64,000 nucleotides of DNA from NCBI GenBank assembly GCA_021811315.1, contig JAJZPF010000008.1, positions 30,294 through 94,293 on the forward strand, given 5' to 3'. The notes beneath the pieces were generated by a model. It saw only the letters and a program-made list of their open reading frames with translations, did no database searches and had not been told where the DNA came from. Source of the DNA: a bacterium (GTDB lineage: Bacteria; Elusimicrobiota; Elusimicrobia; Elusimicrobiales; UBA9959). Both the position numbers and the translations under genes were made by a program. Within the stretch, counting starts at the first letter, position 1, and every line of letters starts with the position of its first letter. Of this stretch, positions 10,840-63,754 are shown one piece after another.

Positions 10840-10845
10840 ATTTTT

Positions 10846-19461: not shown

Positions 19462-19462
19462 T

Positions 19463-22358: not shown

Positions 22359-22386
22359 CTGGAAGTTCCCCGAAAAACAAATCTGG

Positions 22387-37457: not shown

Positions 37458-37467
37458 AAGCGAATTT

Positions 37468-38454
37468 ATGAAGAAGCGGGGCGTGAAAAACAGCGTTTTT
37501 GCCGCGGCTTTACTGCCGGGGCTGCTGCTCTGCGCCCTGTTCCTGCCGGGCCGCGCTTCCGCCGCGGGCTTCAGCTCCGGCTCGGCCGGCACCGCCTCCG
37601 GGCAGTTCCTCAAGATCGCCGCCGGGGCGCGCGGCGCGGGCCTGGGAGAGGCCTATTCCGCCCTGGCCGACGACGCTTTCTCGCTGGACTGGAACCCGGC
37701 GGGGCTCATCTACATAAAGAAAAATTCCATGGCGGTCATGCACGCCCCCTACCTGGCCGGGACCTTCGCGGATTATTTCGCCTACGCCGAGACGGCCGGG
37801 GACATGGGGGCCTGGGGCCTGGCTTTCAAGTACATGAATTACGGCAAGATAAACCGCACCGACTCGAGCGGCCTCGTGCTGGGCAGCTTCACCCCTTACG
37901 ACGTGGCCGTCAGCGTGGGCTTCGCCTGCTACATAACCGGCTTCAACAAGGCGCCCGAGGAGCGCTTCGTGCTGGGCGCCACCGGCAAGTTCATTAAATC
38001 CAAGATCCTTTCGGAGGACAATACCGTTTCCGCCGACATCGGCCTGAACATGCCTTTCATGTTCGACAACCGCTTCCGCATGAGCCTGACGGCCCAGAGC
38101 ATCATGGGCACGCTGCGCTACGACAAGGAACAGGCCAGCCTCCCGCTGATGTTGCGCCTGGGCACCGTCACTAAATTTTCGGATTATTTCAACCTGACCG
38201 GCGACCTGGCGGCGGCGCGCGACAACCTCCCCTACCTGGCCATGGGCGGCGAGGCGCGGCTGCCGGTCCACGAGGACATGGACGCCTTCCTGAGGGCCGG
38301 CTTCAACACGCGCGCGATAAGCGACGTGAGCGGCGCCCGCAACGTTAGCTTCGGCGGCGGGCTGCGCTACAAGACCTACCAGTTCGATTACGCCTTCTCG
38401 CCCTTCGGCGACCTGGGCTCCGTGCACCGCCTCTCCATCCTGATGACCTTCTAG
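37468..38454 (+). CDS. PorV/PorQ-like outer-membrane protein
   Basis: This 328-residue protein has a signal peptide (LLLCALFLPGRASAA) and the family N-terminal block FLKIAAGARGAGLGEAYSAL followed by DAFSLDWNPAGL. The rest is beta-barrel-like (FADYFAYAETAGDMGAWGLA, FGGGLRYKTYQFDYAFSPFG). PorV is the outer-membrane shuttle of the Bacteroidetes type IX secretion system, and related proteins occur in other phyla. Placed next to a protein with a type-IX-like C-terminus, it may help deliver that protein to the surface (inference); the other Por genes are not in this window. Confidence 0.85.
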   Translation: MKKRGVKNSVFAAALLPGLLLCALFLPGRASAAGFSSGSAGTASGQFLKIAAGARGAGLGEAYSALADDAFSLDWNPAGLIYIKKNSMAVMHAPYLAGTFADYFAYAETAGDMGAWGLAFKYMNYGKINRTDSSGLVLGSFTPYDVAVSVGFACYITGFNKAPEERFVLGATGKFIKSKILSEDNTVSADIGLNMPFMFDNRFRMSLTAQSIMGTLRYDKEQASLPLMLRLGTVTKFSDYFNLTGDLAAARDNLPYLAMGGEARLPVHEDMDAFLRAGFNTRAISDVSGARNVSFGGGLRYKTYQFDYAFSPFGDLGSVHRLSILMTF

Positions 38455-47204: not shown

Positions 47205-48482
47205 ATGAACGGGAAAACACCTCATTCCGGGAGCGGCGGCGCCGATATCATAATCATCGGCGGCGGGCCCGCGGGGATCATGGCGGCGGGCCGCGCCGGC
47301 GAGCTGGGCGCGCGCGCGGCGCTCCTGGAAAAGAACCCGCGCCTGGGAACGAAGCTGCTGATCACCGGCGGCGGCAGGTGCAATGTTACGAACGGCGCCG
47401 GGCTCAAAGGCTTTATCGAAGCTTTCGGAAAGAACGGCAAATTCCTGTACCGGGCGCTGACCGTATTCTCGAACCGGAGCCTGACAGGCTTTCTGAATTC
47501 TCACGGCGTTCCGACCCGGACGGACCCGGACGGGAAGATATTCCCGGCGGACGACAAGGCGCAAAGCGTCCTGGCCGCGCTGAGCGGCTACCTGAGGCAC
47601 AGTAAAGTCAAGGTGGCCTGCGGCACCGGGGCCGCCGGCGTTCTGCTTAAGGACGGCAGGCGGATAGAAGGCGTCAAACTCGCTGACGGCTCCGTCATGA
47701 GCTGTAAAAAAATAATTATCGCCACTGGCGGCATGTCCTATCCCGGAACGGGCTCGACCGGCGACGGCTACGCCTGGGCTGAAAGCTGCGGCCACACCAT
47801 CGTGCCGCTCAGGCCCGGCCTCACGGCCCTCGAATCCGGCGACCCGTTCATAAAGGACCTTCAGGGCCTGACGCTCCGGGACGTGACGATCTCCGTCCTG
47901 GCGAACGGCAAAAAAGCGGCCGTGGAAAAAGGGGATTTGCTGTTCACCCATTTCGGCGTCTCGGGCCCGAAGCTGCTGATCCTGAGCGGGTTCGCCGTGG
48001 ACGCGCTCCGGGAGCCCGGCGGCAAAGCCGAGCTTTCCATAAACCTGAGACCGGAGCTGGCGCCGGAAGAACTGGCCGCGGCTATGCAGGAATATTTTTC
48101 CGCCAACGGCGCCCGGATGCTTTCAAGCTATCTTAAAGAGTCTTTGCCGCACTCCCTCGCCCCGGTATTCGGGAAGCTCTGCGGGATCGACGGCGCCAGG
48201 CAGTGCGCCACCATCACCGGGCCCGAGAGGAGGAAACTCGCCGAACTGTTCGGCGGCTTCAGGATACGCCTGACCAGGCCGCGCCCGCTCCAGGAAGCCA
48301 CCGTAACGCGCGGCGGCGTGAATTTAACCGAGATAAACCCGCAGACGATGGAATCGAGGCTCGTCCCCGGGCTGTATTTTTGCGGCGAAGTGCTGGACCT
48401 CGACGGGATCACCGGCGGCTACAACCTGCAGGAGGCTTTCTCCACCGGCTACCTGGCCGGCCAGTCGGCGGCCGCCAGGTAA
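47205..48482 (+). CDS. HI0933-family FAD-dependent oxidoreductase
   Basis: The 425-residue flavoprotein starts with the FAD dinucleotide-binding motif IIIIGGGPAGIMAAGRA, then KNPRLGTKLLITGGGRCNVTN (family hallmark), GTGSTGDGYAWAESCGH and a C-terminal ITGGYNLQEAFSTGYLAG. HI0933-like proteins (YhiN/BaiN group) are common and mostly uncharacterised; one branch acts on bile-acid intermediates. TATAAT lies twelve bases before the ATG, leaving a 5-prime leader of only about five bases. Confidence 0.93.
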   Translation: MNGKTPHSGSGGADIIIIGGGPAGIMAAGRAGELGARAALLEKNPRLGTKLLITGGGRCNVTNGAGLKGFIEAFGKNGKFLYRALTVFSNRSLTGFLNSHGVPTRTDPDGKIFPADDKAQSVLAALSGYLRHSKVKVACGTGAAGVLLKDGRRIEGVKLADGSVMSCKKIIIATGGMSYPGTGSTGDGYAWAESCGHTIVPLRPGLTALESGDPFIKDLQGLTLRDVTISVLANGKKAAVEKGDLLFTHFGVSGPKLLILSGFAVDALREPGGKAELSINLRPELAPEELAAAMQEYFSANGARMLSSYLKESLPHSLAPVFGKLCGIDGARQCATITGPERRKLAELFGGFRIRLTRPRPLQEATVTRGGVNLTEINPQTMESRLVPGLYFCGEVLDLDGITGGYNLQEAFSTGYLAGQSAAAR

Positions 48483-48511: not shown

Positions 48512-49330
48512 TTAGTCCCAAAGGTCTTCCAGCGAGAGCTGGTTGTCGGGAACCTTTACGGCGGCTTTCATCCTGGTGCTCCTGGGCAGGAGCTTGCTGA
48601 GGAACTCGATGGTCCGGGCCTCTTTGGGATGGGCGCAGAGCTCTTTGGCGGGGCCCGCTTCCACGACCTTCCCGGCGTCCATGAAAATTATCCTGTCGGC
48701 GATATCCCTGGCGAAAGAGATCTCGTGGGTGATGACCAGCATGGTCATCCCTTCGAAGGCCAGCTTCCTCATCACGCCAAGCACGTCCTCTTTGACCTCC
48801 GGGTCGAGGGCGCTGGTCGGCTCGTCGAAAAGCATGACCTCCGGCTTCATGGCCAGGGCGCGGGCTATAGCCACGCGCTGCTGCTGGCCGCCGGAGAGCT
48901 GGGACGGGTAGAAGCCGGCTTTCTCGCCGAGGCCCACCTTTTCGAGGAAATCCATCCCCAGCTTTCTCGCGTCGCCCGCGTGCATCCCTTTCACTTTTAT
49001 CGGGGAGAGCGTAATATTCTCGAGCGCCGTCATGTGCGGGAAAAGATTGAAACTCTGGAAGACCATGCCGACGCGCATGCGCAGCTCGTGCCGGCTTTGC
49101 TTCCAGGCTTTCGAAGAATGGTCGGAGGCGGCGTCCAGGGTGACGCCCGCCACGCTGATCTTCCCTGAATTAAAAACCTCCAGCTGGTTGAGGCAGCGCA
49201 GAAGCGTGGTCTTGCCGCAGCCGCTGGGGCCGATGAGTACGACCTTCTCGCCCCTGGCCTGGCCCATGCTGATGCCGTCGAGGACCTTGTGGCTCTTGTA
49301 GCTTTTTACCAGGTTCTTAACGATGATCAT
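48512..49330 (-). CDS. Polar amino acid ABC transporter ATP-binding protein (GlnQ-like)
   Basis: The 272-residue ATPase has Walker [10 protein letters not shown], signature [15 protein letters not shown] and Walker [15 protein letters not shown]. The segment [18 protein letters not shown] is typical of GlnQ/HisP. It extends about 25 residues past the usual end. It overlaps the end of the fused binding-protein/permease gene by 14 bases and completes a one-operon amino acid importer. Confidence 0.95.
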
Positions 49331-50834
49331 ACGAGAGTTTTTTCTCCAGGTGCCGGGCCGCGAGCGAGGCCGGGTAGCTGAGGCCGAAATAGATAGCCGC
49401 CGTCAGCAGGCCAAGTCCCATGTAGTTATAGGTGGCGTTCGCCAGCATGCCGTACATCTTCGTCAGCTCGACCATGGTGATGACGGAGACCAGCGAGGAA
49501 TCCTTGAACAGGGCGATGAAATCGTTGCTGATAGGCGGGATGACTATGCGCATGGCCTGCGGCAGGATCACGTGCCTGACGGCCTGCATCCTTTCCATGC
49601 CGAGGGACATCGCGGCCTCCATCTGGCCGCGCGGTATGGCCTGGATGCCGGCCCGGTAGTTCTCGGCCTCGTAAGCGGCGTAGTTCATGCCCAGGCCGAG
49701 TATCGCCGCCACGAAAGCGCTCAGCTTTATCCCGATATTCGGCAGGCCGTAGTAAAGGATATAAAGCTGGATAAGCAGCGGCGTGCCGCGCACCACTTCC
49801 ACGTAGGCCGTGCTCAGCCAGCGCAGCGGGGCGGCGCCGTACAGCCTGGCCAGAGCGAACATCAGCCCGAGGCCGACGGCGAGCACCATTGAAATGACCG
49901 AGAGCTCCACCGTGATAAGCGCGCTTTTCAGGAGGAGCCACAGATATTTGCCCCACGGCAGGCCGGAGGCCGCGCTCTCCTCCACCAAGGCGTCCTCTTT
50001 GCCGTAGTGCTTCATCTTGGAGCCCATGCTCTCTTCCCACATGCCCCACTTTTTATAAATAGCTTTAAGTTTCCCTTCCGCAAGCAGGGCGTCCAGCGCG
50101 AGGTTTATCTCCGGCAGCAGTTCGGCGTCTTTTTTAGGGACCGCTATCCCGTAATAGCCGTAAGCGAAAGGCTTGCCGGAGAACTTCAGCTCCGCGTAAG
50201 GCCTGGCGTAATAAAGAGCTATCGGGAAATCCATCAGGGAAGCGTCCAGGCGCCCGTTCTTCAGGTCGCGGCAGGGCTCGGAGTTGCCGGCGTAAGAAAC
50301 TATCGTCACCCCGCCCATCTTTTCAAGGAGGCGCTGGGACATGCTGGCGGAAAGGACGCCGACTTTTTTTCCCTTCAGGTCCTCCTGAGTTTTTATATCG
50401 TTCCGGCCCTTCTCCGTCACTATCTGCTGGCTATAGATGTAATAAGGCCTGCTCATCGCCACCTGCTTCAAATGCTCAGGCGTTATCTCCAGCCCGTTCA
50501 TGATGAAGTCGAAGCTGCCGCGGCCCAGCGCCGGGATCAGCCCGTCCCAGTTGTTCTGCACCATCTCGGCCCGCACGCCCCACTTCGCGGCCAGGGCCTG
50601 GGCCAGGTCCACCTCGAAGCCGATAAGTTTGTCCGGGTCTTTCGGGTCCTGGTACACGTAAGGCGCGCCGCCCTCCGCGTCGGCCCCCCAGCGGAACACG
50701 CCGCGCGCTTTGATGTCCGCCAAAGAATTGGCCGCGGCCCAAGCCGGGAACGCGGCCAGGAGCGAAGACAATAATGCCGCCGTTTTAAAATATTTTCTTG
50801 ATTTTGCCGCGCCGCGGACCAGAATAGCTTTCAT
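49317..50834 (-). CDS. Fused amino acid binding protein and permease (GlnH-GlnP type)
   Basis: The 505-residue protein has a signal peptide (SLLAAFPAWAAAN), then a type 3 solute-binding domain (about 40-270; GVFRWGADAEGGAPYVYQ, GFEVDLAQALAAKWG, DFIMNGLEITPEH). The permease domain (about 295-500) has helices and the EAA-type loop EAAMSLGMERMQAVRHVILPQ. Fusion fixes one receptor to each permease. The ligand is probably a polar amino acid, but the specificity residues are not decisive. TATAAT lies eleven bases before the ATG. Confidence 0.93.
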   Translation of the reverse strand: MKAILVRGAAKSRKYFKTAALLSSLLAAFPAWAAANSLADIKARGVFRWGADAEGGAPYVYQDPKDPDKLIGFEVDLAQALAAKWGVRAEMVQNNWDGLIPALGRGSFDFIMNGLEITPEHLKQVAMSRPYYIYSQQIVTEKGRNDIKTQEDLKGKKVGVLSASMSQRLLEKMGGVTIVSYAGNSEPCRDLKNGRLDASLMDFPIALYYARPYAELKFSGKPFAYGYYGIAVPKKDAELLPEINLALDALLAEGKLKAIYKKWGMWEESMGSKMKHYGKEDALVEESAASGLPWGKYLWLLLKSALITVELSVISMVLAVGLGLMFALARLYGAAPLRWLSTAYVEVVRGTPLLIQLYILYYGLPNIGIKLSAFVAAILGLGMNYAAYEAENYRAGIQAIPRGQMEAAMSLGMERMQAVRHVILPQAMRIVIPPISNDFIALFKDSSLVSVITMVELTKMYGMLANATYNYMGLGLLTAAIYFGLSYPASLAARHLEKKLSYDHR

Positions 50835-50950: not shown

Positions 50951-52222
50951 TTATTTAGCCGGCTCCGGTTCTATAATGATGTTCGCTTTGGCAGGCTCCC
51001 CGGCGGCGCCGAACAGGCCTTTTTTCAGCATTTCAGCCGGGACAGCCGGGACTTCGGAGGCCGGGGGAAAAGGAGAAACCACGACCGCCCGGGATTTACC
51101 GGAGACCAGGGAGGAGTACTGCTCCCACGGGGTCAGCGGCCAGCCCAGGCCGGATTCGTAGCTGTTGTCGGTTGGGTTCAGGCCAGCCGACTCGTAAATA
51201 TATTCGGAGTACCCGACGCAGTCGAATTTAACGGGGCCCTTCTGGGAGATATGGGTATAATCGTATTTATAGCCTTTCGTTCCAAGCTCCAGGGATAAGG
51301 CGACGATCTTCGCCCGCTGCTCCGCCGTGGGGGCCGGGCTGGTCGTTTTATTGCCGTAGTAAGGATACTTGAACTGGTGGGTGAAATTCTTCCAGGCTTT
51401 GATATTGCGCACGTCGGGCGGGGTAAAAAAGCCGGGCACGCAGTCGCCGATCAGCACGTAGATCCGCCCGTTCCCGGCCTCGGTGCCGACAAGGATCCCG
51501 GAGTGGCCCACGGGCAGGTCGGGGCTTACCCACTCGTTGATCTCGCCGGTCAGGCCGCCGGAATAAATAATATCGCCGGGAGGGATCCCGATATCGGCCG
51601 AGAGGGCCAGGCCGGGGACAGTCAGTTTTTCCCCCATTTCCTCCAGCATTTCAAAAGCCGCGGCGCGCACGGCGCCGGCCTCTTCAGGAGACAGGGCCAC
51701 GCTCTTTATGAAAGCCGCGGCTGCGGCGTCCCCGTGCTGCTTTCCCATGCCGATCAGATTATTTATTTTAAGGGTGGTATCCGGAGTCCGGTAAAACTCC
51801 CTGAGCTCTAGAGCTATCCCTTTGCTGCCTATCTCGCCGAGGGCCCAGATGGAATTTATAGCGGCCAGCCTGGGGATCACGGATTTTTCCCCGGAACCCG
51901 CGGCCAGGTAGCCTTTGACGTTCTTCAAAAGCAGGTCGACGGCCTGGGGGTTCCTGGTTTCGCCGGCTATTATCGAAGCGCAGCTCTGCACCCCGGCGTC
52001 TGGGTCCATTATGGCTTTGGTCAGTATATAGCGGACCGTTTCGTCCTTGCTGTCGCCCAGCGCCTTCATCGCTTCGCAGCGTGCCCTTGAATCCTTGGTA
52101 TGGTCGGTGGCCGCAAGCAGCAGCTCCCTGGTGGAGCCGGGAGCTGACGCGCCGGTTTGGGCGGAGAGAAGGCCCGCCTGGGCCAGGAAGAGAGAGGTGA
52201 GAAGATAGCTTGTTGTATTCAC
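50951..52222 (-). CDS. Exported HEAT-repeat protein with permuted NlpC/P60-like domain
   Basis: The GTG at 52222 (AAGGAAAAC ahead of it) gives 423 residues with a signal peptide ending at LLSAQTG. HEAT-like repeats cover about 30-200 (SRARCEAMKALGDSKDETVR, RLAAINSIWALGEIGSK). The C-terminal domain (about 215-380) has GDIIYSGG, the His motif VGHSGILVG and then the Cys motif KFDCVGYSEYIYE. His before Cys marks a circularly permuted papain fold (YiiX/YaeF-like group). It may cut peptidoglycan peptides or a lipid/amide substrate. Confidence 0.75.
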   Translation of the reverse strand: MNTTSYLLTSLFLAQAGLLSAQTGASAPGSTRELLLAATDHTKDSRARCEAMKALGDSKDETVRYILTKAIMDPDAGVQSCASIIAGETRNPQAVDLLLKNVKGYLAAGSGEKSVIPRLAAINSIWALGEIGSKGIALELREFYRTPDTTLKINNLIGMGKQHGDAAAAAFIKSVALSPEEAGAVRAAAFEMLEEMGEKLTVPGLALSADIGIPPGDIIYSGGLTGEINEWVSPDLPVGHSGILVGTEAGNGRIYVLIGDCVPGFFTPPDVRNIKAWKNFTHQFKYPYYGNKTTSPAPTAEQRAKIVALSLELGTKGYKYDYTHISQKGPVKFDCVGYSEYIYESAGLNPTDNSYESGLGWPLTPWEQYSSLVSGKSRAVVVSPFPPASEVPAVPAEMLKKGLFGAAGEPAKANIIIEPEPAK

Positions 52223-52351: not shown

Positions 52352-53614
52352 CTACTGTAAATGGTTTTCGCCGGAGAACAGGTCGTAAAAGCCGACCTCT
52401 CCGGAAGTTCCGCTATCAGGTTTCGGGTCGAAAGAGGCGAAAGAACCGAATTCTATGCCGCCGTCTTCCGTCTCAAGGTCCGCGAGAAGCTTTGCGCCCT
52501 TGTACAGCTTCACTTTGATATTCCCTTTCAAAGCCTCATAATCGTTATACATCTTCCCCTGCGGCGTCATGAACTGCAGCAGGAGGAACTTCTCGCGGGG
52601 GGCATAGGCGGAGATCTCCATCCTCTCGCCCCATTTATTGCGCGCTTTCACTTCCCACTTCCCGAAATTCACGTCCACGGTGACGATATCCCCCATAGTG
52701 GGCCGGAACAGGTATTCCTGCCCCTGGTGGCGGAGGCCGATGGTCACGGTCTGTATAGGCTCGACGCCGGGATAGATCTTCGGCTGCCCGCCGCCGGAGG
52801 CCAGCACCGTGCCGGGAGAGTTCTTGAAATTATTCGAGACCAGCCAGGTCCACCACTTCGGGAAGCTCCGGCCCCAGTTCCGGTCCTGGTAAGCGGGCGC
52901 GCCTTTCAATGAAATGGTCCTGCCGCGGTAGTTTATCGTCCCGCTCATCCGGGCGCTCGCCTGGGCGGGATACCAGTAAATATTTGAGAGCCAGCCCTGG
53001 GACATCGTCCAGGCCATCAGGTTCACGCCCCAGTCCTTCTCCACGGTCAGGTCCCAGGAGATCTCCCCGCCGCCCGGGGCGGTCAGGCGGCCTTTAAGCA
53101 TCCTGTCCGTGGCCTGGTTGCCGCCGACGCGGACTAAAGTTGCCTCCGAGCTGGCTGAAAAATCTCCGGGCTTGAAGGTCCGCTCTGCTGTTTCATTATC
53201 GCCGAAGCTGCCGGCGCTTACATAGGACCGCGAAGCCGGCTTTGTCTGGTTGGCGTCCCAAGGGTTTACCACCCCGTAGCAAAAATAAAAAGCGTCGGCA
53301 GTGCCGGGCACCACGACTTTGTAATACCACCACTCGTACCAGTCGCCCGTAATGGCCGGAGTCCAGATCAGGGCATTATATCCGCCTGCAGGGCCCCGGG
53401 CGGAAGGCTGAGCAACCTCTCCGGGAACCGGGGCCGCAACTTCCGGCGCCGCGGTTTTTTCAGCTGAAAAAACATAAAGTTGTTCGGCCGCTCCCGGGAT
53501 GACCGGGGCCGGCCCGGCCTCTGCTGAACCGGGAATAGACGCAAAATTTACGGTCGCAGCCAACAGGGCCCACACAAGACCGTTTCTTCTCAGGTTCGCT
53601 ATACGCCTTCTCAT
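52352..53614 (-). CDS. Exported tocopherol-cyclase-like protein
   Basis: The 420-residue protein has an N-terminal signal segment (LVWALLAATVNFASIPGSAEA). Its body carries hallmarks of the tocopherol cyclase family: GDWYEWWYYKVV, FYFCYGVVNPW, IYWYPAQASARMSGTINY and APAYQDRNWGRSFPKWWTWL. Plant and cyanobacterial members close the chromanol ring of vitamin E, but distant bacterial members have unknown reactions, so the name marks only the fold. It is the last gene of the Lux-like operon, three bases after the LuxC-PaaK fusion, so it probably acts on a product of that pathway after export (inference). Confidence 0.78.
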   Translation of the reverse strand: MRRRIANLRRNGLVWALLAATVNFASIPGSAEAGPAPVIPGAAEQLYVFSAEKTAAPEVAAPVPGEVAQPSARGPAGGYNALIWTPAITGDWYEWWYYKVVVPGTADAFYFCYGVVNPWDANQTKPASRSYVSAGSFGDNETAERTFKPGDFSASSEATLVRVGGNQATDRMLKGRLTAPGGGEISWDLTVEKDWGVNLMAWTMSQGWLSNIYWYPAQASARMSGTINYRGRTISLKGAPAYQDRNWGRSFPKWWTWLVSNNFKNSPGTVLASGGGQPKIYPGVEPIQTVTIGLRHQGQEYLFRPTMGDIVTVDVNFGKWEVKARNKWGERMEISAYAPREKFLLLQFMTPQGKMYNDYEALKGNIKVKLYKGAKLLADLETEDGGIEFGSFASFDPKPDSGTSGEVGFYDLFSGENHLQ

Positions 53615-53616
53615 CT

Positions 53617-56259
53617 TCAGACCTTAACCCTTTTGTCTATGACCTTGCGGATCTTGCCGGTGCGCTGGATGCGCTCTATGGCGTTCGGCTTCAGCACCTC
53701 GATGACGGGAGCGTCCAGCCATTTCAGGCGCACGCTCTCGTGCAGGTCCTCGCAGTGGCTCTGGATCTGCAGCCAGAGCAGATTCGCCAGCCCGGCGGAG
53801 CGCGGCAGGGAAGCCGCGTCCTTGACCTCGACGCGCACTTTCAGCGTGTCCTTATGGCCCTTCTTGTCGATCACGGCCTGGAAATTAAAGCTGAGCTCCG
53901 GAACTTTCCCCAGCGCGTTCTGGATATCGTTCACGAACAGGTGCGCCCCGCCGACGTGGATGCGGTCGTCGCAGCGGCCCAGGATCTCGAATAGCGGCTC
54001 CTTCCTGCCGCAGGCGCAGGGCTTCATGATCCAGCGCCCGAGGTCCCCCACCCGGTAGCGGATGATGGGCATGCTCTTCTTCGAAAGGCAGGTCACAACA
54101 AGTTCCCCCACTTCGCCTTCCTTCACCGGGGCCATGGTCTCCTGGTCCACGAATTCGATGAACTGGCTGGAAGAGAAAATATGGTGCTGCCCCTTCACGC
54201 AGACGGGGCACTGGAAGCCCACTACGCCGGCGTCGGCGGTGGCATAGCCGGCCGAGCGCACGTCTACGCCGGGGAACACGCCTTTGAAGAACTTGACCAT
54301 TTCCTCGCCTACATATTCGCCGCCGTAAAAGATCTTATTGACGCGGAGCTTGTGCTTCTTCGGGTTCGCCTTCACATATTCCGCCAGCTTCACCAGGAAG
54401 GAGGGCAGGCCTATCACGGCGGTCACGCTGAAGTCCTCCAGGTAGCCCACGATATTCTCGAGAGGCAAATTGCTGCCGACCGGCACCGAGATGGCCTTGG
54501 TATAGGAGATGGCTTTCTCGACCGACAGCCAGCTTGACCAGAGATTCCCGGCTATGAACAGGTTCGCTATCGTATCCCTTTCGCCCAGGCCGGCCGCCTC
54601 TAAAGTGAAAGCGAGCATCCGGCAGGTATGGTCGTACTCTTTCTGGTCGTAAAAAATATACTTCGGCTGGCCCGTGGAGCCGCCGCTGGCGAAATAAATT
54701 CCGCGCTGCACCCTGGAGGTAAGCAGGTCGGAACTGTCCGGCGGGGTATTGTCCAGCACATGGTGCTTTTCGAGGAAAGGAACCTTCGCGAAATCCTCCA
54801 TGCCGGTTATCTTCGGCACGGCCTTGAAATGGCGGCCGTAGAAAACGCTGCGGCTTTTCGCGTGCTCCACCATCTCGCTCAGGCGGTCCAGCTGCGAGGG
54901 CTTCTCCTCGATGGGCAGCCAGTTCACCAGCGACATCATCGGGAAGATCCCGTCATGCGGGGAGCCGTTGGACTCCTCCAGCATCTTGCCCAGCCTTACT
55001 ATGCGGGCTATGCCGGCGGGGCCCAGTACCTCCATCACTTTCTTGCGCTCTATCGAGCCCCCGACGCCCACGGTCTGGATATAGCCGCGCATCGGCAGCA
55101 GCCGGTCCCTGACTTCCTCGATGCTCTCCACGGTCTTCACGTAAAGCACGCGGTTGAGCGGCGAGACGCGGTAGACGGGGTCCTTCTCGTAGATCACCGT
55201 CCAGTCCGTCTTCGGCGCCGAGCTTTCACAAGAGGCGTTCCCCAGCGCGCTGTCCACGCGGGCGAGCTGGCGGGCCTTGTTTATCTCCACCATCTCGTCG
55301 GGCGACAGCTTCCCCGGGGGGAGGTCTTTGGCGAGCTGAGAAAAATGTTTTTTGGCCGCTTTCAGGAAATCGGCGGCGAGGGCCTTGTGTTTTTTGGCCG
55401 GGGCGATAAAGTAAAGAGTGTGAAGAGAGGAACAGGCCGCCTGGTCCCAAAGCGAAGCGTCGGTGGCCGCGCGCTGGGCCACGGCGTCCATGCCCTCGTT
55501 CTCGACGCAGCTTTCAAAGACCACGCCCACGCTGGTCTTGGGGCCGAAGCCCTCCACCCGCACGTCTATCGGGGCTATTTTGCGGTAAGACTGCACCGCT
55601 TCGTAGCCGCCCCAGACGAAAACGGCGTTCACGTTCTTCAGCGCGGCCTCTTCAAGGCCCTGGCTGCCGCCTTTCCAGCTGATTATAGCGGCGGACCTGG
55701 CAAGGATCCCTTCCTCGTCCACCTCTTTCAGCGCGTCCATGAAAATATTTATGAAGTTGGAGCCCGAAGAGGAAAGCTTGACGATGTTCACGTTCTTGGT
55801 CAGGAAGCCTATCACCAGCGAATCCAGGATGCCGAGGAAAACGTTCCCTGCGCCCACATGCAGCACCACGCCTTTCGGCATGGCCCGTATCAGGCCGGAA
55901 TAGCCGCGCCGCTCCACCGTGGTTTCCAGAGCGTAGGGCAGGAAGAGCTCCATGCTCATCCGCTTGTTCATGCCCTGCTTGTCCAGCAGCTCCGGTATCA
56001 CGTCCAGGCTTTTGTCTATCACCGGCTCGGAGAAAGTGATGTGCTCTTTGAGATGCGCCAGCGCGGCCTTGCGGTACTTCCCGCCTTTTCTGAACAGCTT
56101 CCCCGCTTTTACCAGGGTATTGATTATGTATTCGCGGGAAGCGCCGCGCATAGTTTCGCGGGCGGCCTGCGCCTGCAGGCCGATCTTTTCAAGCTCGGCC
56201 GGGGTCCAGGAAGTTTTATCGAGAACTTTGCCGAATAAATAAGTGTTGTGTATCTTCAT
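53617..56259 (-). CDS. Fusion of LuxC-like acyl-CoA reductase and PaaK-like adenylate-forming ligase
   Basis: The 880-residue protein has two enzymes. Residues about 1-455 match LuxC: GVVLHVGAGNVFLGILDSLV, NIVKLSSSGSNFINIF and the catalytic Cys segment DASLWDQAACSSLHTLYF. LuxC reduces an acyl thioester to an aldehyde with NADPH. Residues about 460-880 match PaaK/coenzyme-F390-synthetase-type ligases: YFASGGSTGQPKYIFY, SAGYATADAGVVGFQCP, MPIIRYRVGDLGRW and ILGRCDDRIHVGG. A CPV...CAC cysteine set may bind zinc. The protein could activate a carboxylate and reduce it in one chain. It overlaps the luxE start side as ATGA. Confidence 0.9.
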   Translation of the reverse strand: MKIHNTYLFGKVLDKTSWTPAELEKIGLQAQAARETMRGASREYIINTLVKAGKLFRKGGKYRKAALAHLKEHITFSEPVIDKSLDVIPELLDKQGMNKRMSMELFLPYALETTVERRGYSGLIRAMPKGVVLHVGAGNVFLGILDSLVIGFLTKNVNIVKLSSSGSNFINIFMDALKEVDEEGILARSAAIISWKGGSQGLEEAALKNVNAVFVWGGYEAVQSYRKIAPIDVRVEGFGPKTSVGVVFESCVENEGMDAVAQRAATDASLWDQAACSSLHTLYFIAPAKKHKALAADFLKAAKKHFSQLAKDLPPGKLSPDEMVEINKARQLARVDSALGNASCESSAPKTDWTVIYEKDPVYRVSPLNRVLYVKTVESIEEVRDRLLPMRGYIQTVGVGGSIERKKVMEVLGPAGIARIVRLGKMLEESNGSPHDGIFPMMSLVNWLPIEEKPSQLDRLSEMVEHAKSRSVFYGRHFKAVPKITGMEDFAKVPFLEKHHVLDNTPPDSSDLLTSRVQRGIYFASGGSTGQPKYIFYDQKEYDHTCRMLAFTLEAAGLGERDTIANLFIAGNLWSSWLSVEKAISYTKAISVPVGSNLPLENIVGYLEDFSVTAVIGLPSFLVKLAEYVKANPKKHKLRVNKIFYGGEYVGEEMVKFFKGVFPGVDVRSAGYATADAGVVGFQCPVCVKGQHHIFSSSQFIEFVDQETMAPVKEGEVGELVVTCLSKKSMPIIRYRVGDLGRWIMKPCACGRKEPLFEILGRCDDRIHVGGAHLFVNDIQNALGKVPELSFNFQAVIDKKGHKDTLKVRVEVKDAASLPRSAGLANLLWLQIQSHCEDLHESVRLKWLDAPVIEVLKPNAIERIQRTGKIRKVIDKRVKV

Positions 56260-57425
56260 AGCATCGTAGCGGCGGAGATCGCGCAGCCTTTCAGTTTTGT
56301 AACTCCGGCGCGGCCTTTTATTTCAAGCACCGGGCCGGGCAGGCCGCAAGCGCACTTCGGGCGCAGCAGGCCGAAATCGGAGGAAAGGACGGAAAGCGAA
56401 GGATAGCTGGTGAGATAAGGCGTGATGAACTGAAGGAGGCCGGCCTCGTTATAACCCAGCGGCTCAAGCGTGCCCGGGTGGCGCGCTATAATGCGGCCGT
56501 AATTCGGGACATGGAAATTCCCGAGCCGGCAGTCCACATAGGGCACGCCGTGCTCTACCATGCCGAACAGGTCCCTGACGTTCTCAACCGGCACGCCCAG
56601 GTTGTCCGCCAGGATCCTGCGGTAAACTTTCTTGTCCATGGCCTCGTCGGCCAAAGTCTTCCAGCCGCCGCCGGTCACTACGCTGGACTCAGGGTTGAGT
56701 TTCGGGTAGCGGCCGTAGCGTTTTTTGAATTCCTCGGTCAGTTTAAGCGCGAAAGCGGGGAAGCCGACCAGGCGTACCAGCGAACCGGCTTCCTCGAATT
56801 TCTTCATGGCCAAAACCGCGCCGTCTATGTCGAAATAAAAATCTTTTTTTTCTTTGCTCCAGCGGAAAGTGTAAAAGATCTCCCCCTTCTTCGTGAAGCC
56901 GCTGAGCAGTTTGTCCGTCCAGGCGGTGCCGAGGTCTTTGGCCACCTCCGGGTCGTAGGTGAAGCAGATATAATCGTGGGCGCGCTCAAGGTCGGTCAAG
57001 CCCAGCCCGGCGAAAACCTGCCAGGCCATGCGCCGCACGCGCATAAGCGAGCCTTTATCCAGCTGCATCCGGCTGCGCTGCCCCGAAGTTCCGCTGGATT
57101 TAAGCTCCAGGACTATCTTCGAATAAGGAAGCGTGGTCAGGTCCCGCTCTTTCAGGGCGGCCACGAAGATAAAAGGGATATTCGCGATATCCTTCTCCGT
57201 TCTCACGGAGGCGGGGTCGAACCCTTCCGCTTTATAGAGCGCTTTCAGCACGGGCGCGCGCCCGCCCTGAAAAGCAAGCGCCGCGCGCATAGCGGCGCAG
57301 AAAGCTTTCGAGGTCTCAGGAGAATACTCGAAAGCCGGAGTCTCGAAAAAAACATCCACCGCGGCCCGGCTCTTAAGCGGCTCATAAAAAGGCGGAAGTC
57401 GGTCTTCAACTGAAAGGTCGGCCAC
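56256..57425 (-). CDS. LuxE-like acyl-protein synthetase
   Basis: The 389-residue protein matches the LuxE family: FIFVAALKERDLTT, the AMP-binding loop LKSSGTSGQRSRMQLD, YICFTYDPEVAKDLGTAW, SSVVTGGGWKTL and DLFGMVEHGVPYVDCRLGNF. LuxE activates a fatty acid with ATP and transfers it through a Cys to LuxC. Here it is encoded directly before a LuxC-PaaK fusion, so the operon has two adenylating enzymes. No luxA, luxB or luxD is present. Confidence 0.92.
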   Translation of the reverse strand: MADLSVEDRLPPFYEPLKSRAAVDVFFETPAFEYSPETSKAFCAAMRAALAFQGGRAPVLKALYKAEGFDPASVRTEKDIANIPFIFVAALKERDLTTLPYSKIVLELKSSGTSGQRSRMQLDKGSLMRVRRMAWQVFAGLGLTDLERAHDYICFTYDPEVAKDLGTAWTDKLLSGFTKKGEIFYTFRWSKEKKDFYFDIDGAVLAMKKFEEAGSLVRLVGFPAFALKLTEEFKKRYGRYPKLNPESSVVTGGGWKTLADEAMDKKVYRRILADNLGVPVENVRDLFGMVEHGVPYVDCRLGNFHVPNYGRIIARHPGTLEPLGYNEAGLLQFITPYLTSYPSLSVLSSDFGLLRPKCACGLPGPVLEIKGRAGVTKLKGCAISAATML

Positions 57426-57452
57426 GGTTTGTCTCCTTATAAGGCAGCAACT

Positions 57453-58661
57453 CTATTGTCCCGTATATTTCTGGTCCGTCTTGAAGACCAGCTCGATGTA
57501 GTTCTCGCGCCAGAGCTTGAGGTACTCGCGGAGGAAGTTCTTGTAGAGCGAAATGATCTTGACGTTGCGGAAGTCCAGGACTTCGAAGGTGCGCGAGAAG
57601 ATCACGCAGTCGTAGCGCTTGCCGCCCATCCGCTTCGCGCACGGGAAATAAGCGCTGGGGATGAAGCGCGCGTCCAGCGCGTCCCGCTGGATGGCGGGCG
57701 AGTAAGCGTCGATGATGACCTCGACGTAGGCCATGCCCATTTCGCTGACCTTGCGGGCGATGCTTTCGAGCACCACGGCGAAGCTTTTTTCATTGGTCGT
57801 GCCGGCGACTACCACGCTGTACTTGTCCTTGGCGTTATAGGTCATGTAGACCTCGGTGCCCTGGTCCGGGGTTATCAGAAGGAGGTTCGGGTCGTGGAAC
57901 GGCATCACGGTATGCTCGAAGAAGCTGGTCTGCTTGATCTTCTTGTACCTGTGTTTTATGAACTCGGGGGCGGTAATGACTTCGAAATTGAGCAGCGGGA
58001 TCTTCTGCGTGTGGTCGCTGTACTCCCCTTTTACGTTCTTTATCTGCGGCCTCTCCAGGGCGATCTGCTTGCGGACGATCTCGTAGAAGGGCGCCACTTC
58101 GGGGATGATGCGCGGCTTTTTCCTGCGGCGCTGCAGGGCCTTCTCGGTAATATAAGCGGTCAGGCAGTGAGTCTCGTTGTCCTGCACTTTGTGGGTGTTC
58201 GGGAAAATGCCCAGCTTTATGAAACCAAGGCTCTCGGTCAGTTTCTGCGGGGCGTGGTTCGCGGTGCGGGTGGTGGCGTAGACCAAATCCACCAGGTCCT
58301 TGTTCGTGGTGATGTCGTCGAGGACCAGCTTCATCATCGTATAGGCCAGGTTGTGCTTCCGGAACTCCTGGCTGACCACGGCGCCGAAAGCTTTCGAGTT
58401 CCTGTAGGTGTGGTCCAGCGCGTAGACCAGGCTGCCCACCACGCGGTCCTGGCATTCGGCCACCAGCCAGTAGTAGTCGTTATCCTCTATGGCGTGGCGC
58501 ATCTTCTCTTTGTCGGTGACTATCGGGACGGAATAGCTGCTTCCGTAGATCTCGGCGTAAAGCATCTGGATGCGGCGCATGTCCTGCACCTTGGCCAGCC
58601 TGATGATGATATCCGGCTTGCCCTCGGTCTTTATGATCTTTTCTATCTTTTTAAGCGCCAT
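57453..58661 (-). CDS. GNAT-domain protein heading the Lux-like operon
   Basis: I set the start at MALKKIEKIIKTEG (402 residues) because AGGGGAGCAT precedes it. The N-terminal half has a GNAT fold (IRLAKVQDMRRIQMLYAEIY, AVVSQEFRKHNLAYTMMKLV, NHAPQKLTESLGFIKLGIFP), so it can bind acyl-CoA. The C-terminal about 180 residues (QGTEVYMTYNAKDKYSVV, EVIIDAYSPAIQRDALDARF) look like a second, diverged GNAT-like half. It may transfer an acyl group to or from the pathway substrate; the exact acceptor is unknown. Confidence 0.8.
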   Translation of the reverse strand: MALKKIEKIIKTEGKPDIIIRLAKVQDMRRIQMLYAEIYGSSYSVPIVTDKEKMRHAIEDNDYYWLVAECQDRVVGSLVYALDHTYRNSKAFGAVVSQEFRKHNLAYTMMKLVLDDITTNKDLVDLVYATTRTANHAPQKLTESLGFIKLGIFPNTHKVQDNETHCLTAYITEKALQRRRKKPRIIPEVAPFYEIVRKQIALERPQIKNVKGEYSDHTQKIPLLNFEVITAPEFIKHRYKKIKQTSFFEHTVMPFHDPNLLLITPDQGTEVYMTYNAKDKYSVVVAGTTNEKSFAVVLESIARKVSEMGMAYVEVIIDAYSPAIQRDALDARFIPSAYFPCAKRMGGKRYDCVIFSRTFEVLDFRNVKIISLYKNFLREYLKLWRENYIELVFKTDQKYTGQ

Positions 58662-58756: not shown

Positions 58757-59692
58757 ATGAAAACAATTAAACTCTTTTTGCTTCTGGCGGCCCTGGCCCC
58801 GTTCTGGGGCTGCGCCTCGTTCAATTCCGGGGATATCCGCGTGGAGCGCGCCACGGCGCGGGCGATGCTCGAGGACAAAGAGATCGTCCCGTTCTCCGAA
58901 ATACAGGTTTACTGGATGAATTTCCCTTACCGCGCCCCGACCGACTCCATTGGAGAGGGCTCTACAAGGCCCAAAAAGATAAAGCCGCTTCCGGTCGAGC
59001 CGGCCGACGCCGCCGCCCTGGGCCGGAAGGCCAGGGAAGTCTTCTCCGAGGCGGGCCTCTACGACAAAGCGCGCGGCCGCGGTACCCTGCGCCTCGAGCT
59101 CACCAGCTTCGGGCGGTGGACTTACGGCGACCTTTTCCGCTCCTACCTGGTGGACACCAGTTTTATCTTCCTTATTCCCTCCTCGCTGCGGGTCAACTAT
59201 TACCTCACCGCCGACTTCGCCGTTTCGACCGGGACCCTGCGCGTCGAGACCGAAGCGCGCCATAAAACGACCTTTCACCTGCTGATGGCGCCGCTTTACC
59301 CTTTCTTTTCACCCGGGGCCCGCGAGAACGGGCTGCTGCGCCAGATGCTCTGGCGCTCCGCCACCGACGTTTACGCGAAGCTGAAAGCGGCCGGCGCGCC
59401 CCCTCGTGACCTCCCGCCTAAAGCCGCGCAGCCGGAAAGTGAAACCCCGGCCATGTCCGGCCCGCCGGTGCAGCCGGACAGGACCTGGCTCCCGGAGGGC
59501 CAGCCGTTGGAAGGAACGCCGGCGTCCTCCGGGCCCGCGCCAGTCCCTGAAAAACCGGACCAGACCTGGGTGGTCCCCGCGGCCGGCCAGCAGCCCCCGG
59601 CCCTGCAGCCGGCTCCCGCCGCGCCGGCGGCGCCCGCCACGCAGGAACCCCCTAAAACCGCTCCCGCGCAGGACGAGCCCCTGGACGATTAA
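58757..59692 (+). CDS. Lipoprotein with Pro-rich repeat tail
   Basis: The 311-residue protein has a lipoprotein signal (LLLAALAPFWGCAS). A beta-rich domain covers about 25-215 (LEDKEIVPFSEIQVYWMNFP, GRGTLRLELTSFGRWTYGDL). The last 90 residues are Pro/Ala-rich and contain a loose repeat (QPDRTWLPEGQ, KPDQTWVVPAAGQ), probably a flexible tail crossing the peptidoglycan. No family is recognised. TATAATATAG and TAGTAT boxes lie in the 95-base gap to the divergent GNAT gene and may serve both directions. Confidence 0.7.
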   Translation: MKTIKLFLLLAALAPFWGCASFNSGDIRVERATARAMLEDKEIVPFSEIQVYWMNFPYRAPTDSIGEGSTRPKKIKPLPVEPADAAALGRKAREVFSEAGLYDKARGRGTLRLELTSFGRWTYGDLFRSYLVDTSFIFLIPSSLRVNYYLTADFAVSTGTLRVETEARHKTTFHLLMAPLYPFFSPGARENGLLRQMLWRSATDVYAKLKAAGAPPRDLPPKAAQPESETPAMSGPPVQPDRTWLPEGQPLEGTPASSGPAPVPEKPDQTWVVPAAGQQPPALQPAPAAPAAPATQEPPKTAPAQDEPLDD

Positions 59693-59756: not shown

Positions 59757-60245
59757 TTACTTCCCGGTCTTCGCGTCGGGCTTTTCCTCGGCGGCCGGCT
59801 CCCCGGCGGGAGCTTCGGTCTTGCTTTCCTCGGTTTTCACTTCGGCGGCCGGCAGGTTATCCAGGGCCTCTTTCGCGTCCGGCGCGAAGAAGCTCTCCGG
59901 GTTATCCTTAATGAACTTTTTCAGTGCCGCACGTCCGCCCTCCACGTCTCCTCCGACCACCAGTTCCACGGCGTCGGTCAGCTGCTTCTTCTCGTCGGCC
60001 AGTTTCTTCTGGGCCTTCTCGGAGACGCCGCCCTTCCAGTAAAGAGCGTTGGCGTCCTCGCCCTGTTTCGCGCCGCGCACGGCCGCGACCGCGCTCACGC
60101 GGGTCTTGGACTCGAGCTTCTTCTGCACCTTGGTCTTAAGGCCCTTGAGCATGGTATTATACCAGCCCTTCCAGTCTTTGCCGCTTTCCGCGTGGACCAC
60201 GCCCACCGCGAAGATCAGCGCCAGCGCTATTAATGCTTTTTTCAT
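59757..60245 (-). CDS. Small exported protein of unknown function
   Basis: The ATG at 60245 is preceded by GGGAGGGTATTCTT (162 residues). A signal peptide (ALIALALIFAVGVVHAE) is followed by a helical region (DWKGWYNTMLKGLKTKVQKK, EKAQKKLADEKKQLTDAVEL), a short FIKDNPESFFAPDAKEAL segment and a Glu/Ala/Lys-rich tail. It follows the large NHL/transglutaminase gene by 26 bases, so the two are co-transcribed and may work together in the periplasm. No family recognised. Confidence 0.75.
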   Translation of the reverse strand: MKKALIALALIFAVGVVHAESGKDWKGWYNTMLKGLKTKVQKKLESKTRVSAVAAVRGAKQGEDANALYWKGGVSEKAQKKLADEKKQLTDAVELVVGGDVEGGRAALKKFIKDNPESFFAPDAKEALDNLPAAEVKTEESKTEAPAGEPAAEEKPDAKTGK

Positions 60246-60271
60246 AAGAATACCCTCCCGTTCTATCCGCC

Positions 60272-63200
60272 TCACTTGGACAATTTATCGCCGATGCTCT
60301 TGAGCTCGGGCTCGATCTTCGCCGCCCGCTCGGCGAAGGTCTTTATATCGTCTTTCTTGCCCAGCTTCCCGGAAACCCTGGCGAGGTTGAGCCAGATGTT
60401 CCCGTCGAAAGGGTCGGCCTTGGAGGCTTTGAAATAATAATCCCTGGCCTCGTCGTACTTGCCCGCGGTGAAGCTCAGATTGCCCATGTTATTGAGCGCT
60501 CCGGCGTTAAAAGGCTCCTTTTCGAGGACCTTTCCGAAGCAGCCCGCCGCAGCGTCATAGGCTTTATACTCGGCGTGCACTATGCCCAGGCTGAGGTTAG
60601 CCTCGATATCCCCCGGCATTTCCTGCAGGATGCGGCCGTAATATTTCTTCAGGTAGTCGTAGCGGGCGGCCATAAGCGAAGAGATGGCCTCTTTGATCCG
60701 GTCGGACAGCCCGGCTGAAGCGTATTTATCGGACTCGGTCTCGGGCAGCGTGACGGGCTCGAACTCGTTCCAGGCGGTCCGCACGTCTATGACCTTCACG
60801 TCCTTGTCCATCTTCCTGTAAAGGTCGGCCACGTGCAGGATGGAGTCCTGGAAGCTCTTGCCCACCATGGTGGTCTCAACGCCCACCCACCAGGTATTGT
60901 TATATTTTATCAGGTAGTCCTCGGGCAGGCCCACCGCGTTGGCGTCGGTCTCGCCGGTGTCGAACATCAGCGCGATGTGGCCGGGGAAGTCCAGCAGCGC
61001 GACGTGCAGGCCGGAAGCCTCGAAGATGCTGGCGAACAGCGCGGTCAGGTCGTCGCAGTCGCCGCTCTTCAGCTGCAGCGTATTGCGCGGGAACTGCACC
61101 GTGTCCAGCACCAGGTTCTCCGTGGATTTTATCGTCGCGTAGGGGTTCGCCGGGTCGGCCAGGTAGGAAATGCCGTACTCGCCCAAAGCTTCCCAGGCCA
61201 TAAGAGCGGTCAGGATGCTGTCGTCGAGCAGGTCGGCCTCCGCCTCGAATTTCATCTTTTCGCCGAGGGCGAAAGCCCTGAAGGCCATGATCGGGGTGTC
61301 CTTGATGGTTATGAAGTTGGCCAGCCTGGCCGAATTATCCCACACGATGGCGTTCTTGGAAAGCACCTTGACGGGCTTGTTCAGCGTGGCGGTCTTCTCG
61401 GCCCCGTCCTGGTAATAGGTCAGCGTGAGCTGGCACTGGATAGGCGTGTCCTCGTTGATATTAAGGATCCGGTTATTGAGCGTGGCGGACAGGGCCACGT
61501 CGGTCTGCGAATGAGCCTTCACCTCTTCCACGATCGTGTCGCTCGGGAAGTCCATGAAGTCCTTGAAGAAGAAAGACAGCTTCACGTTGGTGAAATCGCT
61601 GTCGGTGTTGTTCTTCACCGTGATCTTGCCGACCGGGTTCTTCTGGTAATACTTGTAGTTGGCGGAGAAAATATAGCTGAGGTCCGGCGCCAGGATCTCC
61701 ATAGGGGCGACGTTCTTGTTCACGGACGCCTCGGGCGCAGCGGACGCTTCGGGCGCCGCCGCCTTGAGAGCTTCCGGCAGCTTGAAGTCCGCCTCGACGC
61801 GTTCGGAGAACCCGCCCTTCGCGCCGGTGGCGGAGATCCCGGAGACATAGTAGGAATAGACGCCGTCGGCGGTAAGCCCGGTATCTTCGAAAGTTTTATC
61901 TTTGCCGCCGCCGATCTCTACCGGCTCCGCCGCGCCCAGGGCGCGGTAAACCTTGAACCCGCCGGTCCAGGCGTTGGCTTTTGCGTTCCAGGAAAGCTTT
62001 ACGCTCTTCGCCCCGACTTCCGCCTTGACCTCGACGGGAGGAGGAGGGATATAGCTGATGCTGAAGGCCTGGATCCGCGCGTTCTCGGGGTCGGAGACGT
62101 ATATTTTGTCGTTGCGGAAAGCCAGGCCCTGGGGATCCCAGAGCTCGCGCTCGCCTTTCCCCTTGGCGAAAAAGCTGGCCGTGAAATTGCCGTCGGCGTC
62201 GAAGATCTTTACGTTGAAGGCGCCTTTGTCCAGGATGTAGAGGAAGCCCTTGCCGTCATAGGCCAGCGAGACGGGGTCCTGCAGGTTCCCGGAATCGTTC
62301 CAGACGCGCAGGAACTTGCCCATGGAGTCCAGCATTATCACTTTTTTAAGCTCGGAGTCCAGGACGTAGACGTTCTTGTTCTCGTCGCAGGACACCGCGA
62401 CCGGGTTGGCCAGCGTTACGCTGTCCAGCGCCGGGCCCTTGGCAAAAAGGAACATCCCGTCCGCGTTGAAAACCTTTATCATCTTGTTCCTGGTGTCCGC
62501 CACATAGATCATGCCTTTGGGGTTGACGGCCACGGAGGACGGCTGCCTGAACTGGCCCTCGTCGGAGCCGCTCTCGCCGAACATATTTTCATAAGCGCCG
62601 TCCGGCTTGAAGATCTGGATCCTGTCATTGCCGGTGTCGGCCACGTAGATCAGGCCCTTGGGGTCGACGAAAATACCGCGGGGGGCGCGGACTTGCCCCT
62701 GCAGTTTGCCTTCTTTTATGAGCGTCTTCTTGGTGGCCCCGTCAATAAGGGCTATCTCTTTGGCTTCCGGCAGGTACGCGACGATCTTCCCGTCGGGAGT
62801 GACGGCGAACACGTCGGCCTTAAAGGCGACCCTGGGCGCAACGGGACCCTTTACAGTGAACCGGTCGAGTATGGCGGCCATGGGGAGCCCGGCCCTGTCT
62901 TTTGCGTGTTCAAGGCCGATCATGACAACCTTCTTGTTATCGCCGTCGCAGAGGTAGAGCACGCCGTCCTCGTCGATGGCTATGTCGCGCAGGTTCTTAA
63001 ATTCGCTCTTGCCTTTCCCCCTGGTGCCGAAGGTCCCTTTCACCTCGCCGGACTCGGAAACTTCCCTGACCTTGCCTTCCCTGGAATTTATCACGTAAAG
63101 GAGTCCGTATTTGTCGGTGGCCACGCCGTTGTTGGCGATCGCGTATTCCTTGAGCAGCTTGCCGGCCCTGTCGTACCGCTGCAGCATCGCTTTCTCCGAG

Positions 63201-63754
63201 TCGGAGATTATAATGTCGCCGGAACGGCTCAGCACTATTTTTTCAGGGTTGAGCTTCGTGACGCCGTCGGACTTGGCCACGGGGAAACCGTAGAGGTAAA
63301 TGCCGTCGGAGTTAAAGACGGCGATCCTGGAATTCTCGGTGTCGGAAACGTAGAGCCTGTCGTCCGGGCCATAAGCTATGCCGGCGGGTTCCTTCAGCTG
63401 GCCGGGCGCGCTGCCTTCGCTCGAGAAGGCCCAGAGCATCTTTCCTTCCGCGTCGAAAACCACCACGCGGGAGTTGCCGGTGTCGGCTACGTAAAGCTTG
63501 CCGCCGCCGAAGGAGATCGACATCGGTTCCCTCAGGGCGCCCTCTATTTTCTTGAGGAATTTTCCCTCGCCGTCGAAGACGAACACGGCGTTGGCCTTTG
63601 AGTCGGCTACGAAGACCTTGCCTTTAGCCAGCGCCACCGCGCCGGGCTTCAGGAAAGCGGGGGTAAGTATCTGGCCTTTAAATTCTATTTTCTCATAGGC
63701 GTGAGAAACGGACGCCAGCGCGAAAAAGATAAGCGAAAAAATAATGCGGTTCAT
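60272..63754 (-). CDS. Large exported NHL-propeller / FN3 / transglutaminase-like / TPR protein
   Basis: The 1160-residue protein has a signal peptide (IIFSLIFFALASVSHA) and GGGGAGGCA before the ATG. Residues about 25-555 contain at least ten NHL-type repeats (VADTGNSRVVVFDAEGKML, VADTGNDRIQIFKPDGAYEN), enough for two propellers. An FN3 domain (about 558-650), an Ig-like region (about 680-800) and a transglutaminase-like domain (about 860-1010; catalytic Cys in KSGDCDDLTALFASIF, His in DFPGHIALMFD) follow. TPR repeats (about 1040-1150) end it. It is probably a periplasmic or surface protein-processing or scaffolding factor. Confidence 0.88.
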   Translation of the reverse strand: MNRIIFSLIFFALASVSHAYEKIEFKGQILTPAFLKPGAVALAKGKVFVADSKANAVFVFDGEGKFLKKIEGALREPMSISFGGGKLYVADTGNSRVVVFDAEGKMLWAFSSEGSAPGQLKEPAGIAYGPDDRLYVSDTENSRIAVFNSDGIYLYGFPVAKSDGVTKLNPEKIVLSRSGDIIISDSEKAMLQRYDRAGKLLKEYAIANNGVATDKYGLLYVINSREGKVREVSESGEVKGTFGTRGKGKSEFKNLRDIAIDEDGVLYLCDGDNKKVVMIGLEHAKDRAGLPMAAILDRFTVKGPVAPRVAFKADVFAVTPDGKIVAYLPEAKEIALIDGATKKTLIKEGKLQGQVRAPRGIFVDPKGLIYVADTGNDRIQIFKPDGAYENMFGESGSDEGQFRQPSSVAVNPKGMIYVADTRNKMIKVFNADGMFLFAKGPALDSVTLANPVAVSCDENKNVYVLDSELKKVIMLDSMGKFLRVWNDSGNLQDPVSLAYDGKGFLYILDKGAFNVKIFDADGNFTASFFAKGKGERELWDPQGLAFRNDKIYVSDPENARIQAFSISYIPPPPVEVKAEVGAKSVKLSWNAKANAWTGGFKVYRALGAAEPVEIGGGKDKTFEDTGLTADGVYSYYVSGISATGAKGGFSERVEADFKLPEALKAAAPEASAAPEASVNKNVAPMEILAPDLSYIFSANYKYYQKNPVGKITVKNNTDSDFTNVKLSFFFKDFMDFPSDTIVEEVKAHSQTDVALSATLNNRILNINEDTPIQCQLTLTYYQDGAEKTATLNKPVKVLSKNAIVWDNSARLANFITIKDTPIMAFRAFALGEKMKFEAEADLLDDSILTALMAWEALGEYGISYLADPANPYATIKSTENLVLDTVQFPRNTLQLKSGDCDDLTALFASIFEASGLHVALLDFPGHIALMFDTGETDANAVGLPEDYLIKYNNTWWVGVETTMVGKSFQDSILHVADLYRKMDKDVKVIDVRTAWNEFEPVTLPETESDKYASAGLSDRIKEAISSLMAARYDYLKKYYGRILQEMPGDIEANLSLGIVHAEYKAYDAAAGCFGKVLEKEPFNAGALNNMGNLSFTAGKYDEARDYYFKASKADPFDGNIWLNLARVSGKLGKKDDIKTFAERAAKIEPELKSIGDKLSK

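Follow-up and report, generated by a model that had tools for sequence, protein, structure and literature searches.

The window, by which we mean the whole stretch of 64,000 nucleotides analysed here, derives from a metagenome-assembled genome of 2.67 Mb; among named genomes its nearest relatives are Elusimicrobia. As this genome is only 63% complete, absences of genes were judged on its relatives. Positions 52352 to 58661 hold four intact and closely packed open reading frames, all on the minus strand, each with Pfam assignments above the curated gathering score (LuxE 115.8 bits, LuxC 230.8, AMP-binding 42.0, AMP-binding_C_2 36.4, Tocopherol_cycl 110.6 and GNAT, as Acetyltransf_1, 30.2). The four linked genes reported in the initial annotation are thus present, with the following features:

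57453..58661, minus strand: tandem GNAT, 402 aa, the gene that opens the conserved module (Pfam, AF2 and Foldseek)
56256..57425, minus strand: LuxE-type acyl-protein synthetase, 389 aa (PF04443, 115.8 bits; match to PDB 7xc6_E)
codon 56283-56285, minus strand: predicted acyl-accepting Cys381 of LuxE (aligned with Cys364 of 7xc6_E)
53617..56259, minus strand: LuxC-PaaK fusion, 880 aa, an acyl reductase joined to a PaaK-type AMP ligase (PF05893 230.8, PF00501 42.0 and PF14535 36.4 bits; matches to PDB 7xc6_A and 4r1l)
54919..56133, minus strand: LuxC domain, residues 43-447 (Pfam boundaries)
codon 55432-55434, minus strand: catalytic Cys276 of LuxC (alignment, 80/80)
53629..54900, minus strand: PaaK-type AMP ligase domain, residues 454-877 (profile match to 4r1l over residues 455-877)
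P-loop 525-533, Asp739 and Lys869, minus strand: active-site elements of the PaaK domain (alignment)
52352..53614, minus strand: PF14249 (tocopherol-cyclase family) protein, 420 aa (110.6 bits), which adjoins the module and is judged a non-member

The stop codon of LuxE overlaps the ATG of LuxC-PaaK (ATGCTATGA), and the PF14249 gene starts 3 nt past the stop codon of the fusion on the same strand (TGAAGATG). Promoter and terminator scans of the locus stayed at chance level. Elsewhere in the window several gene groups were recognized by eye. Positions 15455-22487 hold chemotaxis genes (CheB-, CheA-, MCP- and CheR-like); near-complete members of this lineage lack flagellin, and the genes may act on type IV pili or on a different output. 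A repeat protein of 1212 aa whose C-terminus resembles a type IX secretion sorting domain is followed by a PorV-like outer-membrane protein (33819-38454). At 49317-50834 the binding protein and permease of an amino-acid ABC transporter are apparently fused (505 aa), with the ATPase at 48512-49330.

According to the structure models, the first gene of the module encodes two GNAT folds in one chain, in agreement with the two-part GNAT that had been proposed from the sequence. The AF2 model reached a pLDDT of 89.6 for the whole protein and of 87.2 for the C-terminal half modelled alone. Foldseek placed the N-terminal half (from the whole model) with SpeG/ArsN/RimI-type proteins (E 7.6e-11) and the separately modelled C-terminal half with the phosphinothricin-acetyltransferase-type fold (E 4.3e-7), the latter being divergent with a TM by target of about 0.56. 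Motif A of GNAT proteins usually reads R-x-x-G-x-G/A; here many members have a degenerate form (R-K-H-N-L-A in the window), and only some keep the canonical one.

The catalytic residues of the other two proteins are nearly invariant, and judging from these alignments the module should be active. Cys381 of LuxE, which pairs with Cys364 of Photobacterium LuxE (PDB 7xc6_E), is kept in all 77 aligned sequences. In the fusion, Cys276 of the LuxC domain is found in 80 of 80 sequences and His435-Asp436 in 79 of 80, while in the ligase Asp739 is invariant (80 of 80), as is Lys869 among the 79 sequences that extend to this position. The P-loop, the Asp, the catalytic Lys and the C-terminal domain of the PaaK-type AMP ligase superfamily are all present. 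The remoter Bacteriovorax-class members likewise retain Cys276 and the Asp and Lys of the ligase. Consequently, two carboxylate-activating enzymes (LuxE and a PaaK-type ligase) and an intact LuxC cysteine region, as stated in the initial annotation, are borne out by Pfam and by residue conservation. Between the window and its sister genome (G111, LuxC-PaaK 98% identical) the three core genes show a dN/dS of 0.04-0.05, pointing to strong purifying selection.

Each of the four proteins was searched against one set of 150 Elusimicrobiota genomes. The full-length LuxC-PaaK fusion is present in 18 of these; GNAT and LuxE both occur in the same 18 and in one additional genome (G083), where the contig breaks off at the module, and three more genomes hold distant matches to LuxE only. 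Apart from these cases the core genes are all absent together. Across 100 loci from about ten bacterial lineages, all three core genes are found at 89, in 86 cases on one strand and in the order GNAT-LuxE-LuxC/PaaK, with a median of 4 nt from the LuxE stop to the LuxC start. Contig ends explain most of the exceptions; GNAT or LuxE is missing from its usual position at three loci (L134, L135 and L152), and in one genome (G085) GNAT lies about 13 kb from the other core genes. Overall, GNAT, LuxE and LuxC-PaaK form one conserved system. The mirror-tree correlation is 0.97; it reflects in part the shared species tree and is not counted as proof.

With the fusion alignment as query, 85,462 species genomes were scanned and gave 80 loci, distributed over Elusimicrobiota, Armatimonadetes, UBP9, UBP17, CPR1, Wallbacteria, Riflebacteria, Muiribacteriota, Eremiobacterota, the Bacteriovorax group and a bin of Chloroflexi. 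Some of these are represented by single metagenome bins, for which the lineage names may be wrong. In the class to which the Bacteriovorax stolpii genome belongs, 71 of 116 genomes gave fusion matches, and all 20 neighbourhoods sampled there show GNAT, LuxE and LuxC/PaaK in that order. Since the flanking genes vary among lineages, the module behaves as a self-contained unit.

Several neighbours of more local distribution were recorded. A divergent lipoprotein-like gene (window 58757-59692), a small secreted protein (59757-60275) and a protein of 1160 aa with beta-propeller, transglutaminase-like and TPR parts (60272-63754) keep their place by the module in many loci of the same family, and not outside it. 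At three Elusimicrobiota loci (L107, 3228-4696; L108; L112) LuxE and LuxC-PaaK are separated by two inserted genes, one for a DUF1007 protein and one for a membrane protein that by eye looks metal-transport-like. A fusion of HATPase_c_2 (RsbW-like) with GNAT accompanies the module in CPR1 (L152, 2611-4005) and in an Elusimicrobiota genome (L048, 6023-7576); the assignment is based on a Pfam match in L152, the L048 protein being of the same HMM family.

The fourth gene of the window behaves differently. Homologues of the PF14249 protein occur in 4 of the 150 genomes, against 18-19 for each core gene, and in two of these four the gene is unlinked, on another contig with unrelated neighbours. It adjoins the module solely in the window species and the sister genome; at the remaining loci scanned it is not found beside the module, close relatives having other genes there (at L077 the flavoprotein gene known from window positions 47205-48482 comes directly after LuxC-PaaK). 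Its dN/dS is 0.27, against 0.04-0.05 for the core. Because it is rare, unlinked in two of its four genomes and under looser selection than the core, we judge the PF14249 gene a chance local neighbour outside the conserved system, though its position directly after the fusion means that it may be co-transcribed in the two species that share the arrangement. The conserved linkage of four genes expected in the initial annotation therefore stands for GNAT, LuxE and LuxC-PaaK (86 of 100 loci) but not for the PF14249 gene, the one of the four whose homologues occur independently. By eye, the N-terminus of the PF14249 protein resembles a signal peptide. On its other side lies a HEAT-repeat gene (PF13646, window 50951-52222), shared with the sister genome only among the loci compared; the C-terminal part of its product is weakly NlpC/P60-like (E-value 0.25, below the cut-off).

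In the phylogeny of the fusion two branches are well supported, and the window belongs to the compact one. The second covers Bacteriovorax-class genomes, two Elusimicrobiota, three Streptomyces plasmids and one Salmonella plasmid, and in most of the members sampled a standalone PaaK gene adjoins the module. In several of its members the P-loop ends in TA or SA and not in PK. The gene order is PaaK-MFS-GNAT-LuxE-LuxC/PaaK on the annotated Streptomyces plasmid and LuxE-LuxC/PaaK-PaaK-GNAT on the Salmonella plasmid; PaaK, GNAT, LuxE and LuxC/PaaK were also found on the two further Streptomyces plasmids. An MFS gene lies in or beside the module in Streptomyces, at four Bacteriovorax-class loci (with overlap seen), in one Elusimicrobiota genome (G045), in Wallbacteria and in CPR1. 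In the compact branch, with the exception of L138, no MFS gene adjoins the module, so export may not apply to the window.

The Salmonella plasmid (CP054717.1, module at 10509-16267 of locus L187) is conjugative, and genes for a Tn3 transposase, for recombinases and for toxin-antitoxin systems lie in the vicinity of the module; CP053580.1 bears a copy with 99.8% identity, and no near match was found in complete E. coli genomes. A phage origin was considered and set aside, as phage records gave partial domain matches only. Unfused LuxE-LuxC pairs were encountered on two other plasmids: one of Streptomyces europaeiscabiei (L190, 3986-12444; NZ_CP109155.1), where the pair lies beside YcaO, DUF692 and MBL-fold genes in a possible peptide-product cluster, and one of a cold-seep Chloroflexota (L191, 7905-14112; CP069395.1), where it lies near a heliorhodopsin gene.

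LuxC and LuxE are textbook enzymes of bioluminescence. The proteins described here match the LuxC-LuxE fatty acid reductase of Photobacterium (PDB 7xc6) in sequence, in the alignment of both cysteines and in the adjacency of the genes, but differ in the fusion of LuxC to a PaaK-type ligase, in the tandem GNAT as third partner and in the lack of a luciferase-family gene. Neither protein reaches the NCBIfam equivalog cut-off (128.8 against 750 bits for LuxC, 86.5 against 550 for LuxE). In line with the initial annotation, which had noted that luxAB is missing, the luciferase family PF00296 is absent from the window genome and from seven near-complete Elusimicrobiota carriers (0 of 8), with a control that was positive in 10 of 14 genomes. 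A search for the LuxD thioesterase (PF02273) gave no match, nor did its control set. Given the absence of PF00296 in all eight carriers and the widely missed equivalog cut-offs, a bioluminescence operon was rejected.

The ligase domain aligns over its whole length (455-877) with phenylacetate-CoA ligase PaaK (4r1l, 2y4o), with the active-site Asp and Lys present, but it sits behind LuxC in a fusion and scores under all curated PaaK cut-offs (TIGR02155: 149.1 against 646.3 bits). Carboxylic acid reductase (CAR) likewise joins a ligase and a reductase in a single protein. CAR, however, is built as adenylation domain, carrier and SDR reductase, whereas in the present fusion the ligase follows an ALDH-like LuxC and Pfam finds no carrier domain. 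The PF14249 protein belongs to the same Pfam family as tocopherol cyclase, yet it is no conserved member of the operon. Anti-phage defence was rejected, PADLOC-DB having no match for the window proteins or the submitted plasmid homologues. No NCBIfam or PADLOC model names a GNAT-LuxE-LuxC/PaaK system, and no description of this operon was found in the literature searched, where most subscription papers were outside reach.

What the three genes make can be outlined from their families. We see about an even chance that the module is a self-contained biosynthetic set in which LuxE and LuxC reduce an acid, the PaaK domain activates an acid and GNAT transfers an acyl group, yielding a small acylated or reduced metabolite or a lipid. 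LuxE would adenylate a carboxylic acid and keep the acyl group as a thioester on Cys381; from there the group would move to Cys276 of LuxC, to be reduced with NADPH to an aldehyde. Such acyl passage and reduction to aldehyde are established for the Photobacterium pair, though LuxC might instead work here in the oxidising direction. The fused PaaK domain would adenylate an acid as well, either to load a second acid on CoA for GNAT or as an alternative supply to LuxC, and the tandem GNAT would move an acyl group from acyl-CoA onto an amine. With no luciferase-family gene in the eight Elusimicrobiota carriers, the aldehyde or its alcohol must enter another product, probably a small metabolite or lipid that is acylated and bears an aldehyde or alcohol. 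In several lineages of the branch with standalone PaaK, an MFS transporter whose gene lies within or next to the operon may export the product.

The recurrent MFS gene and the carriage on plasmids in this second branch point to a small exported metabolite. More tentatively, the module, found in about ten bacterial lineages and on Streptomyces and Salmonella plasmids, might represent a new type of mobile and minimal biosynthetic cluster, independent of NRPS and PKS. Its two adenylating enzymes, together with LuxC and the tandem GNAT, would then assemble a small N-acyl aldehyde or alcohol, and the cell would export this compound as a signal or antagonist.

The product may also be a lipid, since LuxC-PaaK in Bacteriovorax/Halobacteriovorax is directly followed by genes for a PlsC-family acyltransferase and a weakly GNAT-like protein. 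The module could accordingly form a branch of membrane-lipid synthesis: LuxE and LuxC would provide a fatty aldehyde or alcohol and GNAT would N-acylate an amine, giving an unusual aminolipid or ether lipid (compare GNAT and PlsC-type enzymes in ornithine-lipid synthesis). The characterised relatives of LuxC and LuxE use long-chain acids, which favours such a role. Nonetheless, among the loci compared PlsC adjoins the module only at L147, L150 and L151, neither Elusimicrobiota nor the annotated Streptomyces plasmid showing it there, and the family of the PaaK domain consists mostly of ligases for aryl or short-chain acids; we therefore find a membrane-lipid role conceivable but rather unlikely. 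A search for wax-ester synthase gave no match, nor did its control.

Acylation of a surface glycan appears improbable. Its model is the flagellin glycosylation islands of Aeromonas and Enterobacteriaceae, which group luxE, luxC, AMP-dependent synthetase, ACP and FabG genes (PMC7874193, PMC4875605) and for which a comparable role of LuxC/LuxE and an AMP ligase, outside bioluminescence, has been proposed. In those islands the genes are separate and lie among glycan genes with ACP and FabG, whereas the genes described here, GNAT among them, make up a compact operon, and the Elusimicrobiota that carry it lack flagellin: PF00669 is absent from all 15 near-complete Elusimicrobiota carriers, on which ground flagellin glycosylation was rejected for this phylum. 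Flagellins are present in both Bacteriovorax-class genomes tested. Furthermore, inspection of the recurrent neighbours, part of which were annotated, revealed no glycosyltransferase or pseudaminic-acid gene and none for ACP or FabG.

We give as little credence to a catabolic module, in which aromatic or fatty acids from the environment would be activated by PaaK and LuxE, while LuxC would interconvert aldehyde and acyl-CoA for growth. PaaK-type ligases are indeed typical of aromatic-acid catabolism, but ring-cleavage or beta-oxidation genes were not noticed among the recurrent neighbours, the tandem GNAT and the MFS exporter fit poorly, and the ligase falls below every curated PaaK cut-off. 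Finally, the four-gene pathway of the initial annotation, with an exported tocopherol-cyclase-like protein that would act outside the cytoplasm to cyclise a product of reduced-lipid or quinone-like nature, is very improbable: the close spacing and possible co-transcription in two species speak for it, against the rarity, the unlinked copies, the absence at other loci and the looser selection of the PF14249 gene, and with the exclusion of the cyclase from the module the proposed cyclised or quinone-like lipid and its extracytoplasmic modification lose their support as well.

Returning to the biosynthetic set of three genes, LuxC and LuxE relatives are here part of a conserved operon with other partners, in bacteria without a luciferase gene. 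The matches in one class (71 of 116 genomes), together with the carriage on plasmids, indicate that the module is common and mobile, and the set is apparently both widespread and undescribed. Carriers in the Bacteriovorax class and in Streptomyces suit direct tests, as the operon is short, two cysteines can serve as indicators and the product would be detectable by metabolomics.
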